A DNA stretch of 64,000 nt from Rhodospirillales bacterium (GTDB taxonomy: Bacteria; Pseudomonadota; Alphaproteobacteria; Rhodospirillales; Casp-alpha2), in NCBI GenBank assembly GCA_017640505.1, contig JAEPQO010000001.1:1070625-1134624 (forward strand), given 5' to 3'. Position 1 is the first letter of the stretch; every line of letters starts with the position of its first letter. The notes below the pieces were generated by a model. That model saw only the letters and a program-made list of their open reading frames with translations. It made no database searches and was not told the DNA's origin. Below, piece by piece: positions 32,060 to 38,059 of this stretch. The translations under genes and the position numbers were made by a program.

Positions 32060-33670
32060 CTAAACCGCCAGCGCCATGCCGTCGCGGCCCGGGTCGGCGC
32101 CGCCGTCGATCTTGCCGTCTTCCGAAATCCGGATCGCATGCACGCCGGCAAAGTGGAAGCCGAGCGGGTAGCGGCGGAAGGTATAGCCGTCTTCCTCCAG
32201 TTCCGCCTGCACATAGCGCGGGATGCGGTTGACGATCTCGATGATGTCGCTGGTCGCCGAGAAGCGCGGCGCGGCGACGGCCTGTTGCGCATCCATGCCG
32301 AAATCGATGGCGTTCAGAATGCCCTGCAGCACGCCCATGGCGATATACGTCCCGCCGGGCGCACCGATCAGAAGGCGCGGTTTGCCGTCCTTGAACACGA
32401 TGGAAGGCGCCATCGAGGTGAAGCGCGATTTGCCGGGGGCCAGCGAACCGGTCATGCCCGGGCGCGGGTCGAACACGCCCATGCAGCCGTTATAGACGAA
32501 GCCGAGACCTTCGGTGGTCACGCCCGACGGCATGCCCAGCGAATGCGTCATGGTAACGCAGTTGCCCTGCGCGTCGATGGTGCAAAGGTGCGTCGTTTCC
32601 TTTTGATCCTCGCCTTTTTGGAAGCGCGGCACGTGCGTTTTTTCGCCGGACTTGATCTTCTTGGCCATCGCCTTGGCGTAGTCCTTGGACAGCAGATGAT
32701 CGAGCGGAATATCGACGAAGCGTGGGTCGCCGACGTGCTTGTCCTTGTCGACGGTTGCGATCTTCATCGCTTCGACGACGGTGCGGATGTATTCGGGGCT
32801 GTTGTGCTTCATGCCCGCGAGATCGAAATTCTCGAGGATGTTGAGCATCTGCAACACCATGACGCCGCCGCCCGGCGGCGGGCTGGACGCAACCTGATAG
32901 CCCCGGTAATCGGTCCAAAGCAGTTCCGTGTCCTCGGGTCCCGCTTTCTTTAGGTCTTCCATGGTAATCAGGCCGCCGTTGGCTTCCATGTCGGCGGCGA
33001 TCTTAGATGCGATCTCGCCTTCATAGAAATCGTCGGCGCCCGCCTTGGCGATACGTTTGTACGTCGCCGCCATGTCCGGATTCTTGATGATGCCGCCCAT
33101 GGGCTTCATGGAGCCATCGTCGTTGAGATAGATCTTCGCCGTAGCGGGCGAACCGCGCAGGTATTCAATGTGCTCGACCCGGCCGCCGGGTTCGACCTGT
33201 TCCCAAAAGCGCCGCACGTGCGGGCGGATCATCCAGCCGCCCTCGGCATACTCGATGGCGGGCTGGATTACCTCGTCCAGTGACTTGGTGCCCCATTTCT
33301 TGAGCGCGGTGTCATAGGCCCGCAGGCTTTCCGGCGTGGCGATGGACTGGTAGCCGACCTCGTTGACGCGGCCTTCGAGGATGAACCCGAAGCCGTCCTC
33401 GCACTCGTGCAGCAGCTTATCCAGCCACATGTCTTCTTTCACGCCGAGGGGCGCGCGGGCATGGAAATCCAGGCACTGATGCGTTTCGAAATCGGGCAGG
33501 TAGACGTGCATCGAGCCGAACCCGGCGATCCCGCACATGAACGGATCTACGGCGGTCTGCACCAGTGCCGTCGCGATCGCTGCATCGACGGCATTGCCAC
33601 CCGCTTTCAGCACCAGCGCGCCGGCCTCCACCGCTTCCGGTTGCGGCGCGCACACCATACCCTTGGCCAT
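32060..33670 (-). CDS. Gamma-glutamyltransferase family protein without export signal
   Basis: Ntn-hydrolase proenzyme homologue of about 536 residues. The N-terminal GGNAVDAAIATALVQTAVDPFMCGIAGFG is typical, and the autoprocessing Thr is likely in KETTHLCTIDAQGNCVTMTHSLG. The small-subunit motifs SRFTSMAPSIVFKDGKPRLLIGAPGG and QQAVAAPRF follow. Classic GGTs are periplasmic; here the ORF starts directly at MAKGMVCAPQPEAV without a signal peptide, so it probably acts in the cytoplasm, as do cephalosporin-acylase-like relatives. It lies between a class II aldolase and the TRAP operon. Confidence 0.9.
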   Translation of the reverse strand: MAKGMVCAPQPEAVEAGALVLKAGGNAVDAAIATALVQTAVDPFMCGIAGFGSMHVYLPDFETHQCLDFHARAPLGVKEDMWLDKLLHECEDGFGFILEGRVNEVGYQSIATPESLRAYDTALKKWGTKSLDEVIQPAIEYAEGGWMIRPHVRRFWEQVEPGGRVEHIEYLRGSPATAKIYLNDDGSMKPMGGIIKNPDMAATYKRIAKAGADDFYEGEIASKIAADMEANGGLITMEDLKKAGPEDTELLWTDYRGYQVASSPPPGGGVMVLQMLNILENFDLAGMKHNSPEYIRTVVEAMKIATVDKDKHVGDPRFVDIPLDHLLSKDYAKAMAKKIKSGEKTHVPRFQKGEDQKETTHLCTIDAQGNCVTMTHSLGMPSGVTTEGLGFVYNGCMGVFDPRPGMTGSLAPGKSRFTSMAPSIVFKDGKPRLLIGAPGGTYIAMGVLQGILNAIDFGMDAQQAVAAPRFSATSDIIEIVNRIPRYVQAELEEDGYTFRRYPLGFHFAGVHAIRISEDGKIDGGADPGRDGMALAV

Positions 33671-33707
33671 TTCAGGCTCTCCTTCTCGTCAGGTCGTCTT
33701 CAGGTCG

Positions 33708-34487
33708 TTATTCGGCGTAACTCGGATCGATGCGGTCGAGCATCCGTTTGAGCGCATCCCACTGCAGGACGGCATTCTTGCCGCTGGAATAGTTCTGCTC
33801 GAACTGCTGCGCCGTCTTCTCGCAGGTTTCCTCGTCGACGATGCGAAGCTCGCCGCCACCGGATTGCGCCATTAACTGCAACTGGCAGGCGTCGTTCAGG
33901 CGCTTGTGCAGAATGAACGCATTGGCGACGCTGTCGCCCACGGTCAGAAGCCCGTGGTTCCACAGCATCATCGCCTTGAGATCGCCGAGGTCGGCGGCCA
34001 GGCGGTCGCGCTCGTCCAGATCGTCGGCGATGCCTTCGTAGTCGTGATAGGCGAGACGGTTATAGAAGCAGAGCGACTTCTGGTTCAGCATCAGAAGACC
34101 TTCCTTCTGCGCCGAAACGGCCATGCCTTCGAACGTATGGGTGTGCATGACGCAGACCGCATCCTCGCGGTTCATGTGAATGGCGGAGTGTATCGTGAAG
34201 CCCGCCTTGATGTAGCCGAACGGGCTTTCCATGATCTTGTTGCCGTCACAGTCGATCTTGATCAGCGACGAGGCGGTGATTTCCTCGAACTTGAGGCCGA
34301 GCGGATTGATCAGGAAATGATGGTCGGTGTTCGGAATGCGCGCCGAGTTGTGGGTGAACAGGATGTCGTCCCAGCCGTAGTGGGCGACAAGCCGGTAACA
34401 GGCCGCGAGATCGACCCGCATCTGCCATTCTTCCTCGGATACCCGGTCGCGCACGGACGGCAACTCGAGCGTATGCACATTGCTCAT
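33708..34487 (-). CDS. Class II aldolase/adducin family protein
   Basis: Protein of about 259 residues of the class II aldolase fold. The zinc ligands are seen as His pairs: NSARIPNTDHHFLINP, VMHTHTFEGMAVSA (HxH) and LWNHGLLTVGDSVANAF. The catalytic acid position in the aldolase HTHS region cannot be assigned confidently, so aldolase, decarboxylase or non-catalytic function are open. ATG 34487 has GGGAG 8 bases upstream; the track start at 34502 is 5 codons longer. It is followed 37 bases later by the GGT homologue on the same strand. Confidence 0.9.
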   Translation of the reverse strand: MSNVHTLELPSVRDRVSEEEWQMRVDLAACYRLVAHYGWDDILFTHNSARIPNTDHHFLINPLGLKFEEITASSLIKIDCDGNKIMESPFGYIKAGFTIHSAIHMNREDAVCVMHTHTFEGMAVSAQKEGLLMLNQKSLCFYNRLAYHDYEGIADDLDERDRLAADLGDLKAMMLWNHGLLTVGDSVANAFILHKRLNDACQLQLMAQSGGGELRIVDEETCEKTAQQFEQNYSSGKNAVLQWDALKRMLDRIDPSYAE

Positions 34488-34588
34488 TTCGATTTCTCCC
34501 ATTAGGACTCTTGCATTAAGGTTCCATCATCGCGGGCTTTTCCGCAAGCCCCACCCCACAAGACCGTCTGGTACCAGGGAGAAAATAA

Positions 34589-36430
34589 GTGTCTGACAGC
34601 AATTCGGAGGCGGGCTGGAAAGTCGCGCCCAGAGATTACGTGCGCGGCCTCGGCAAAGCCTATGAAGGCGAGCGTTTGAGCTCGGTCTACGTGCCGATGC
34701 GTGACGGGATTCGCCTGGCTGTCGACGTTCATCTGCCCGGCACGGAGGATGAAGACACCACATATCCGACGATCTGCATCTTCACGCCCTACTACCGGCG
34801 GTTCGCGCTGCGTGACGGCCACCGCGACGGGATCGACCCGTGCCCGACGATCGCGTTTTACCGCGACAATTTCGTGAAGCGGGGTTACGCGCTTGTCTGT
34901 GTCGACGTGCGTGGTTCCGGGGCAAGCTTCGGTGCGCGGGACGGTTTTCGTTCACCTGCGGAGCGCCTCGATCACCACGACACGGTGGACTGGGTCGCGC
35001 AGCAGCCCTGGTGCGACGGCAATATCGGCGCGACCGGGATTTCGTATCCGGGCGCCGCATCGGATTTCCTGGCCTCGACCAATCACCCGAACGTCAAGGC
35101 GGTGGCGCCGCTGTTCGCGGTCTGGGACACGTGGTCGAACCACCTTTATCCGGGCGGCGTGCTGCTGACGTGCGTGACACGGAACTACGGCCAACTGGCC
35201 GACGCGCTCGACTTCGACGACCGCGATCTGATCCCGGACTATGCGTATTTCAAGGATGACGATCTGGCCGGGCCAGCACCGGTCGACGAGGACGCCGACG
35301 GGTCGCTCCTGAAAGCGGCGCTCAAGGATCACGTCGCCAACTTCAACATGCAGGACTTCGCGCAGCAGTTCCGCTTCCGCGACGACGCGTTGACCGATAA
35401 TCCCGATTACCAGAGCAGGGTGATCTGCCCCTACAACTATGCCAGCCGCGAGGCCGACAAGCAGACGGCGTACTATTCCGTTTCCGGCTGGATGGACGGC
35501 GGCGGGTATTCCGTCGGCACGATCCAACGTTATCTGTGGCTCAAGGAAAAGCATCACCGTTTGATGCTCGGTCCCTGGGATCACGGCGCGCGCGGCCACG
35601 TCAGCCCGTGGCGCGGCGATAAGCCGGCCGCACAGCAGCCCTTCGTCGCCGCCGAAGTGCTCCGGTTCTTCGATACGCATCTGAAAGGTCTGGAGACAGG
35701 GATCGAAGACGAAGCCCCGGTGCATTACTTCACCATGGCTGCCGAAAAATGGCAGTCGGCGGAAAGCTGGCCGCCCGCCGAGCCGGATACGGTTCTGTAT
35801 TTCGATGCCGACGGCGCGCTCAGTGCGAACAAGCCCGCGGTCGAGGAAGGCGTCGACGATTACCAGGCGGACTATGATTGCCGCACCGGTGTGCATACCC
35901 GTTACGACCGGCTCTACATCGCCAATGTGGAAACCTATTACGACGACTGGCACGGCCGTGACGAGAAGATGCTGAACTTCACGTCGGATGCGTTCGGCGA
36001 GGACACCGAGATGACCGGCCATCCTGTCGTCGATCTTCACTTCACGTGCTCCGAGAAGGACGGAACCTTTTTCGTCTATATCTCCGACATCACGCCGGAG
36101 GGGAAATCGGTTTATGTGACGGAAGGCGTGTTCCGCGCCCTGCACCGCAAGGAAGGGCCGTTGCCGAAGGACATCCCGCCGACAGGACCGACGCATTCGT
36201 TCAACCGTGCAGATGCCATGCATCTGGTGCCGGGCGAGGCAGCGAGTGTGTCCTTCGAACTGCTGCCGACGTCCTATCTGTTCGGAGCCGGCCACCGGTT
36301 GAGGGTGTCCATAGCCTCCGCCGACAGTGATCATTTCACGCGCATTCCGGACGGACGGCCACCAAAGTTCGTGTTTTTCCGCACAGCGGAACAGCCGTCG
36401 GCAATAAGGTTGCCGATTGTCCGCCGTTAG
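34589..36430 (+). CDS. CocE/NonD family hydrolase
   Basis: Serine hydrolase of about 613 residues with an alpha/beta-hydrolase core and a C-terminal jelly-roll (X-Pro dipeptidyl-peptidase C-terminal) domain from about residue 390. The nucleophile is in GATGISYPGAASDF (GxSYxG), and the catalytic His is in LMLGPWDHGARGH. The oxyanion region YYRRFALRDG and VCVDVRGSGASFG are typical of cocaine-esterase-like proteins. No signal peptide. Start codon GTG 34589 has GGGAGAAAATAA upstream. The substrate, an ester or amide, is unknown. Confidence 0.9.
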   Translation: MSDSNSEAGWKVAPRDYVRGLGKAYEGERLSSVYVPMRDGIRLAVDVHLPGTEDEDTTYPTICIFTPYYRRFALRDGHRDGIDPCPTIAFYRDNFVKRGYALVCVDVRGSGASFGARDGFRSPAERLDHHDTVDWVAQQPWCDGNIGATGISYPGAASDFLASTNHPNVKAVAPLFAVWDTWSNHLYPGGVLLTCVTRNYGQLADALDFDDRDLIPDYAYFKDDDLAGPAPVDEDADGSLLKAALKDHVANFNMQDFAQQFRFRDDALTDNPDYQSRVICPYNYASREADKQTAYYSVSGWMDGGGYSVGTIQRYLWLKEKHHRLMLGPWDHGARGHVSPWRGDKPAAQQPFVAAEVLRFFDTHLKGLETGIEDEAPVHYFTMAAEKWQSAESWPPAEPDTVLYFDADGALSANKPAVEEGVDDYQADYDCRTGVHTRYDRLYIANVETYYDDWHGRDEKMLNFTSDAFGEDTEMTGHPVVDLHFTCSEKDGTFFVYISDITPEGKSVYVTEGVFRALHRKEGPLPKDIPPTGPTHSFNRADAMHLVPGEAASVSFELLPTSYLFGAGHRLRVSIASADSDHFTRIPDGRPPKFVFFRTAEQPSAIRLPIVRR

Positions 36431-36484
36431 GTCATTGAAAATCAAAAACGCCCTTCCGATATCCTAGTGAGTGAAGGGGTTTGC

Positions 36485-37471
36485 ATGGCTAACGAGCTGA
36501 TACCCGATATCGATCCCGCGTTGCAGCCGACGCCGGAAGACCTGAGCTTCGATCTTAAAGAAGCCCTCAGGGCCGTTTATCTGATCAGGACGCGTGTGCC
36601 CGAAGACGGCTTCACAGCGCAGTCACTCGGCAGCGAGCGTGCCGGTCATGCTGTCCTGATCGACGAGCGCGGTATTCTGCTGACCATTGGCTACCTTGTG
36701 GTCGAGGCGGAAAGCGTCTGGCTTGTCGATGCCGATGGCGCCGCCGTCGAAGGGCATGTTCTCGGCGCTGATACGGAAACCGGTTTCGGCTTGGTGCAGA
36801 TGCTGGGCCGTCCCTCGATCAAGCCGCTGGCCATCGGTACGGCCGAAGACCTTGAAGTGGGCGACCGCGCAATCGTTGCGGGCTACGGTGGCTGCGGGCA
36901 GTCGGTTGACGTCGAGGTTGTCGGCCGCCGGGAGTTCGCGGGCTACTGGGAGTACCTGCTGGATAACGCCATCTTCACCTCGCCGCCGCATCCGTTCTGG
37001 GGCGGCGCTGCATTGATCGGCAACGACGGCACGCTGAAAGGAATCGGCTCGCTGTTCGTTCAGGAGGGCGCACACGACGGCGACGACGACGAAGGTCGTG
37101 AAGGGAACATGATTGTCCCGATCGACCTACTGCACGACATCAAGGACGACCTGTTGCTGCATGGCCAGCGCATGACGCCGCCGCGTCCATGGCTTGGAAT
37201 GTTTTCCGCAGAATCCGCCGGCAAGGTCGTGGTGGCCGGGCTGTGGTCCGGCGGGCCTGCGGATCAGGCCGGCCTGGAGGCAGGCGATCTGGTCCTTGAA
37301 ATCGGCGATAAGCCGGTGACCAGTATGGCGTCGATGTACAAGACCATCTGGGCGCTGGGCAGTGCCGGCGTGACCGTCCCGCTGACGATCTTTCGCGACA
37401 AGCGCATCATCGAGATCGAAATCGAAAGCGCCAGCCGCATCGACTTCTATAAAAAACCCGGCCTGCATTGA
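36485..37471 (+). CDS. HtrA-like PDZ protein with all three catalytic residues lost (pseudoprotease)
   Basis: Cytoplasmic-looking protein of about 328 residues: a trypsin-like S1C domain (about 35-215) and a PDZ domain (about 225-315, with GLWSGGPADQAGLEAGDLVLEIGDKPV). Aligning family motifs by eye, the His of TNAHVV is Tyr (LTIGYLVV), the Asp of ETDLAV is Gly (TETGFGLVQ), and the Ser of GNSGG is Trp (PFWGGAAL). No signal peptide. The fold seems retained, so a binding or scaffold role is likely. ATG 36485 has AAGGGG; alkB starts 3 bases after its stop. Confidence 0.85.
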   Translation: MANELIPDIDPALQPTPEDLSFDLKEALRAVYLIRTRVPEDGFTAQSLGSERAGHAVLIDERGILLTIGYLVVEAESVWLVDADGAAVEGHVLGADTETGFGLVQMLGRPSIKPLAIGTAEDLEVGDRAIVAGYGGCGQSVDVEVVGRREFAGYWEYLLDNAIFTSPPHPFWGGAALIGNDGTLKGIGSLFVQEGAHDGDDDEGREGNMIVPIDLLHDIKDDLLLHGQRMTPPRPWLGMFSAESAGKVVVAGLWSGGPADQAGLEAGDLVLEIGDKPVTSMASMYKTIWALGSAGVTVPLTIFRDKRIIEIEIESASRIDFYKKPGLH

Positions 37472-37474
37472 GCG

Positions 37475-38059
37475 ATGCCACAGGCGGCTGAAACGACGCT
37501 TGCGGCCGCCGGCGCCGACATCGTGATGTACGAGGACGTGTTCGACGATCCGGATCGATTGTATCGATGCGTCGACACCGAAGCGGACTGGCGCCAGGAA
37601 GACATCACGCTGTTTGGCCGCACGCACAAGATGCCCCGGCTCGTCTGCTGGATGGGCGAAAGGCCCTATACGTACTCGGGCCTGACACATCCGGCGGCGC
37701 CGTTTTCACCCGCCGTGGCTACGATCAGGAAAGCCGCGGAAAGGATCGCGGGGAGCCGGTTCAACGGCGTCCTGCTGAACCTTTATCGCGACGGCCGCGA
37801 TTCCATGGGATGGCATGCGGACGACGAGGCATCGCTCGGCGCCGCGCCCGTCATCGCGTCGGTCAGTCTGGGCGCGGTACGCCGGATGCGGTTCAAGCCG
37901 AAGCCGCATTTCAAGGCTGAAACATTCGGGGTCGACCTGCCGCCCGGGAGCCTGCTGCTGATGAAAGGGGCGACCCAGACCAACTGGCTGCACGCCATCC
38001 CGAAGACGGCGAAGCCCGTTGGCCCGCGGATCAATCTGACTTTCAGGATGATCGTTTAA
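37475..38059 (+). CDS. alkB: AlkB-family 2-oxoglutarate/Fe(II) dioxygenase
   Basis: DNA/RNA dealkylation enzyme homologue of about 194 residues. The Fe(II) ligands are in MGWHADDE (HxD) and NWLHAIPKT (distal His), and the 2-oxoglutarate-binding Arg is in GPRINLTFR. The nucleotide-recognition region YTYSGLTHPAAPFSP and FNGVLLNLYRDGRDSM match ALKBH2/3-like bacterial proteins. It starts 3 bases after the HtrA-like gene stop, indicating one transcript. It ends convergently with the IclR gene. Confidence 0.93.
   Translation: MPQAAETTLAAAGADIVMYEDVFDDPDRLYRCVDTEADWRQEDITLFGRTHKMPRLVCWMGERPYTYSGLTHPAAPFSPAVATIRKAAERIAGSRFNGVLLNLYRDGRDSMGWHADDEASLGAAPVIASVSLGAVRRMRFKPKPHFKAETFGVDLPPGSLLLMKGATQTNWLHAIPKTAKPVGPRINLTFRMIV

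Follow-up and report, generated by a model that had tools for sequence, protein, structure and literature searches.

A conserved family of HtrA-fold pseudoproteases lacking the catalytic triad in Alphaproteobacteria

The gene at positions 36485..37471 on the forward strand of the window (the whole 64,000-nucleotide stretch of DNA analyzed here, G000:C4:1070625-1134624, from a genome of 3.95 Mb, most of whose named relatives are Alphaproteobacteria) encodes a 328-residue HtrA-fold protein from which the protease machinery has been lost, and which belongs to a real and conserved family of pseudoproteases, HtrA-derived pseudoproteases as such being already known. On balance, we consider it probable that this is a cytoplasmic, noncatalytic protein that acts as an adaptor or scaffold, with its former substrate cleft and its PDZ domain as binding surfaces. 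The initial annotation had likewise proposed a cytoplasmic pseudoprotease with a conserved noncatalytic role, and this proposal is supported by the lack of a signal peptide, by replacements that are fixed in 176 family sequences, and by low dN/dS values, as discussed below.

The reading frame is intact from the ATG at 36485 to the stop codon that ends at 37471. A GTG at 36467 could in principle provide a longer alternative start, but this is unlikely because a GAAGGGG ribosome-binding sequence precedes the ATG at 36485, and because the closest orthologues share the start at MANE. The product contains only two recognizable domains, namely a Trypsin_2 (S1C) domain at residues 54–187 (36644..37045, +; Pfam PF13365, E 3.6e-10), for which Foldseek searches with the domain model also return DegQ, DegP and DegS, and a single PDZ domain at about residues 235–314 (37187..37426, +), which is matched by PF13180 (PDZ_2, E 1.1e-10), PF17820 and PF00595 and carries a PWLG carboxylate-binding-loop motif. 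These are followed by a C-terminal tail (37427..37468, +), which contains the invariant R318 and ends in P-G-L-H. The open reading frame and the trypsin-like and PDZ domains are thus as originally annotated, as is the lack of a signal peptide, with neither a hydrophobic N-terminal segment nor an export signal being seen when the N-terminus was read by eye. Sequence searches give DegQ, DegP and DegS as the best solved relatives of this protein, and the same genome encodes four further HtrA-type proteins (L002–L005), in all of which the His, Asp and Ser motifs are intact. Scanning the window for RNA families and tRNAs returned none, and a promoter and terminator scan of the regions flanking the gene gave no signal above chance.

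An AlphaFold2 model built from 53 sequences was obtained with a pLDDT of 92.3 and a pTM of 0.89. Foldseek searches with the full-length model place DegQ, DegP and DegS first (E 8.9e-23 to DegQ, 4ynn), with a TM-score of about 0.5, and the protease domain alone gives TM-scores of 0.63–0.73 to the same three proteins, normalized by query length. The full-length value may indicate that, in the predicted structure, the PDZ domain is placed differently from that of HtrA proteases.

The catalytic His57 position is occupied by Tyr70 (codon 36692..36694, +; TIGYL aligned with TNNHV), and the catalytic Asp102 position by Gly100 (codon 36782..36784, +; TETGFGLV aligned with KTDIAVL). The L1/oxyanion loop motif NPGNSGG corresponds to the PPHPFWGG segment at residues 167–174 (36983..37006, +), such that Asn194 is replaced by Trp172 and Ser195 by Gly173. 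The initial annotation, according to which the entire triad had been replaced, therefore stands for all three positions, including the Tyr and Gly substitutions, and needs correction only in the identity of the residue at the serine position, which had been given as Trp: phmmer, hmmsearch with the family profile, MAFFT and hhalign all align Ser195 with Gly173, and all four place Trp172 at the Asn/Asp194 position, one residue before the catalytic serine. A fourth catalytic feature is also gone from the window protein, as Phe171 takes the place of the oxyanion-hole Gly193, and we note that work on the magnetosome protein MamO indicates that a non-glycine residue at position 193 is by itself enough to disfavor the active conformation (PMC4794232). 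Elsewhere in the protein, Asn208-Met209 (37106..37111, +) maps by hhalign to the GFA position of the HtrA substrate-binding strand, and the EFAGYWEY segment at residues 150–157 (36932..36955, +), which is invariant in 104/104 cytosolic-type sequences, occupies the position of HtrA loop L3. A shortened L3 loop was sought and not found, its length being similar to that in HtrA.

These replacements were followed across 176 family sequences, drawn from relatives, named genome records (80 loci), a phylum sample, a class sample, and plasmid records. Position 100 is Gly in every sequence, and position 70 is Tyr in 174, with one Cys and one Phe. The oxyanion position 171 is Gly in only 3/176. Position 172 is always aromatic or His (Trp 147, Phe 19, Tyr 7, His 3), and the serine site at position 173 drifts (Gly 152, Ser 15, Ala 6, and one each of Pro, Thr and Asn). 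That the serine position varies while its neighbors are fixed is as expected once catalysis is no longer under selection. The 15 sequences that keep Ser at this position (among them L112, L114, L067, L104, L149 and L152) have lost both His and Asp. W155, E156, Y157, G174, N208, G238 and R318 are each present in 176/176 sequences, W236 of the PDZ domain in 175 and M209 in 172, and the terminal residue is His in 103 of the 104 sequences of cytosolic type in the first set and Gln in the Rhizobiaceae and Phyllobacteriaceae records. The polar residues conserved in at least 93% of sequences are R52, T67, Y70, E74, D96, E156, Y157, S189, D268, S315 and R318. As this set contains no His, no alternative triad can be built from it elsewhere in the protein; orthologues with an active triad were likewise looked for, and none was found.

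Invariant positions make up 24/48 of the former-cleft and L3 segments, compared to 24/280 elsewhere (Fisher p 9e-11), although these segments were picked by homology after the alignment had been seen, and canonical HtrA proteases conserve them too. As canonical HtrA proteases also concentrate their conservation in this region, the enrichment alone is no proof of repurposing.

The family divides into two branches, both of which lack the triad. Members of branch A, to which the window protein belongs, have no hydrophobic N-terminal signal and usually end in P-x-L-H (L-Q in Rhizobiaceae and Phyllobacteriaceae), whereas members of branch B share 35–45% identity with the window protein and often have a hydrophobic or lipoprotein-like N-terminus, as read by eye and with a simple hydropathy measure. 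In several families of the order, branch B genes are flanked by a uvrD-prmA pair on one side and a CLC chloride channel gene on the other (L135–L154; for example L139:5473-7770, L144:7099-8874 and L154:2526-3422). A quick tree separates branches A and B, as one clade, from nine HtrA proteases with 100% SH-aLRT support, with the joining branch being long, so that the exact root inside the clade is uncertain; the Ser-keeping sequences L112 and L152 are placed near the base of the family.

Matches at E 1e-60 or better are present in 47/191 other sampled alphaproteobacterial genomes (about a quarter). Full-length members score ~335–475 bits, with one partial match at 248 (247–475 bits for the family as a whole), and no match in another class of the phylum or to an ordinary HtrA protease exceeds 115 bits. 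Because the members score so far above this ceiling, the family can be treated as discrete. Some records labeled Beta- or Gammaproteobacteria carry family members, but the records in question, being metagenome bins, may have been given the wrong taxonomic label. One complete genome of only 1.2 Mb keeps a single member (L196; G321:C1:311000-321000), which suggests a function worth keeping.

An alkB-like 2OG-Fe(II) oxygenase gene (37475..38059, +; PF13532, E 1.9e-31) follows, with its ATG 3 bases downstream of the pseudoprotease gene. The two genes lie side by side on one strand in 25 of the 27 genomes of the window's own taxonomic family that have both branch A and alkB, across eight genera, and the short gap and conserved gene order make it likely that they are on the same transcript in this lineage. 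One genus of the same taxonomic family (g14) has the pseudoprotease and lacks alkB. Outside this taxonomic family, the adjacency was not found: the orthologues retrieved from further families and orders have other genomic locations, and no such alkB is present in any sampled relative with branch A. Because these members lack it, the core function cannot depend on alkB, which is a stable, lineage-specific companion rather than the key to that function. The coupling to alkB that had initially been noted thus holds within the window's lineage, but was not seen beyond it among the genomes sampled, where the differing neighborhoods and the lack of such an alkB rule it out as a general partner.

Upstream, a CocE/NonD-family hydrolase gene (34589..36430, +; TIGR00976, E 1.2e-109) is separated from the pseudoprotease ATG by 54 bases, and is a neighbor only in the window's own genus and one close genus; no other conserved neighbors of the cytosolic branch were found across families. 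Genes for a gamma-glutamyltranspeptidase and a class II aldolase lie divergently further upstream (32060-34502, −), and are found again close to the pseudoprotease-alkB pair in further genera of this taxonomic family. In some of its genomes, the pseudoprotease-alkB pair is followed, on its own strand, by a BLUF blue-light-sensor gene (L133:8289-8771, and L043). The contig that carries L043 (PCVX01000076.1) is labeled Candidatus Omnitrophica and has the order class II aldolase, pseudoprotease, alkB and BLUF; as this gene order is alphaproteobacterial, the contig is probably misbinned. In terms of an anti-phage role, PADLOC gave no match for the pseudoprotease, and its CARF_2OG match to AlkB was set aside as an anti-phage sign, as it covers only the oxygenase domain.

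Taking these observations together, we propose the following scenario. By comparison among family members, the common ancestor of the whole family lost the triad His and Asp together with the oxyanion glycine, and the serine position drifted afterward. What was once the substrate cleft (Tyr70, the HPxWGG loop and the Asn208-Met209 strand) may, together with EFAGYWEY, have become a fixed, non-cutting binding surface. The PDZ domain appears from its sequence to keep its peptide-end binding loop, and would hold the C-terminus of a partner, while the dead protease domain would grip this partner or a regulatory segment without cleaving it. In the window's lineage, the protein would in addition be cotranscribed with alkB. 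A broader reading, which we regard as plausible and just short of probable, is that this is an ancient, undescribed pseudoprotease family present in about a quarter of Alphaproteobacteria, cytoplasmic and, via its sister branch, probably also in the envelope, in which the cleft would have turned into a fixed site for recognizing a shared ligand, and which would form a new class of nonproteolytic regulators or adaptors concealed by the name "serine protease".

A conserved cleft is just as compatible with a small-molecule site or with a new activity. In our main rival reading, a small molecule or cofactor is bound in the former cleft, or other chemistry takes place there, and the protein would be a sensor of this ligand or an enzyme of a new kind. 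Y70, E74, D96, E156, Y157, N208 and R318 are as fixed as they would be in an enzyme, beyond what a simple scaffold needs, and position 172 is held as W/F/Y/H in 176/176 sequences. However, the family has neither a conserved His or Cys nor a recognizable cofactor motif, and the intact PWLG loop in the PDZ domain favors a peptide ligand, such that we consider this reading unlikely, while still giving it appreciable weight. The initial annotation suggested a link to alkylation or stress repair, and the reading that the protein partners or regulates AlkB in alkylation repair draws on the co-directional pairing described above; with orthologues outside the taxonomic family lying away from alkB, and with g14 lacking it, such a role would be at most a lineage-specific addition, and is improbable as an account of the family. 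Still less probable is a metal-binding pseudoprotease resembling MamO, which shares the degenerate triad, the non-glycine residue at position 193, and a bulky L1 Trp (PMC4794232), since the metal site of MamO is a pair of His residues, and no His reaches 93% conservation in our alignment, with H169 being present in only 157/176 sequences.

The two remaining readings are at odds with the conservation data. That the protein is still a protease by way of relocated catalytic residues would be in line with its public annotation as a serine protease and with the 15/176 sequences that have Ser at the Ser195 position, but this is extremely improbable given replacement of the His, Asp and Gly193 positions, the lack of a conserved His, and a serine position that varies freely. 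Finally, the loss of all catalytic residues might also be read as decay of an HtrA gene copy. The frame is open in every genome searched, without internal stops, and dN/dS (Nei-Gojobori, against congeners with unsaturated dS) is 0.02–0.10, which is to be taken as rough only, with several dS values >1. Together with replacements that are fixed across the class, this rules out a decaying copy, to which we assign next to no probability, and agrees with the original argument that a retained frame reflects a conserved role.

The proposed adaptor or scaffold thus remains our preferred reading, and can be placed against known systems. DegP, DegQ and DegS (MEROPS S1C) share the domain order, predicted fold and PDZ binding-loop motif of the window family; the latter lacks the triad and the oxyanion Gly193, the window protein has no signal peptide and only one PDZ domain, and the invariant EFAGYWEY and HPxWGG segments belong to the window family and set it apart. 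Plasmid records from Rhizobiaceae and Phyllobacteriaceae (for example L175, L176 and L177), which PGAP labels "S1C family serine protease" despite their lack of the catalytic residues, are family members with the same Tyr/Gly/Gly replacements and a C-terminus of LQ instead of LH. Such annotation as an active protease is wrong for the family, and its correction touches many genomes.

In 91 genomes, a 2008 survey counted 42 putatively inactive serine-protease homologues, spread over five families of serine proteases (PMC2605481), and the only earlier descriptions of comparable families that we found, in literature of which our coverage was partial and in which others could have been missed, are those of MamO and PflC. 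MamO is likewise HtrA-derived and kept by selection, with the degenerate triad, non-Gly 193 and L1 Trp noted above, and is a metal-binding protein that activates MamE noncatalytically (PMC4794232); in contrast to the window family, which is widespread, has a PDZ domain and no conserved His, and to the window protein, which lacks a TauE domain, it is confined to alphaproteobacterial magnetotactic strains and has a TauE domain and a two-His metal site (PMC4794232). PflC, from the Campylobacter jejuni flagellar motor, is a scaffold protein that is also HtrA-derived and without the triad, but is periplasmic, with an atrophied active-site region and a C-terminal PDZ domain without a binding loop (PMC12222027), whereas the window family retains the PDZ loop motif and has in the cleft one of its most conserved regions. 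Both are narrow, lineage-specific HtrA pseudoproteases, whereas the window family is broad and deep, spanning a cytosolic and a probably exported branch, with replacements fixed across many families of the class, and thereby offers a case, accessible to experiment, in which a protease fold would have been converted to a conserved binding protein.
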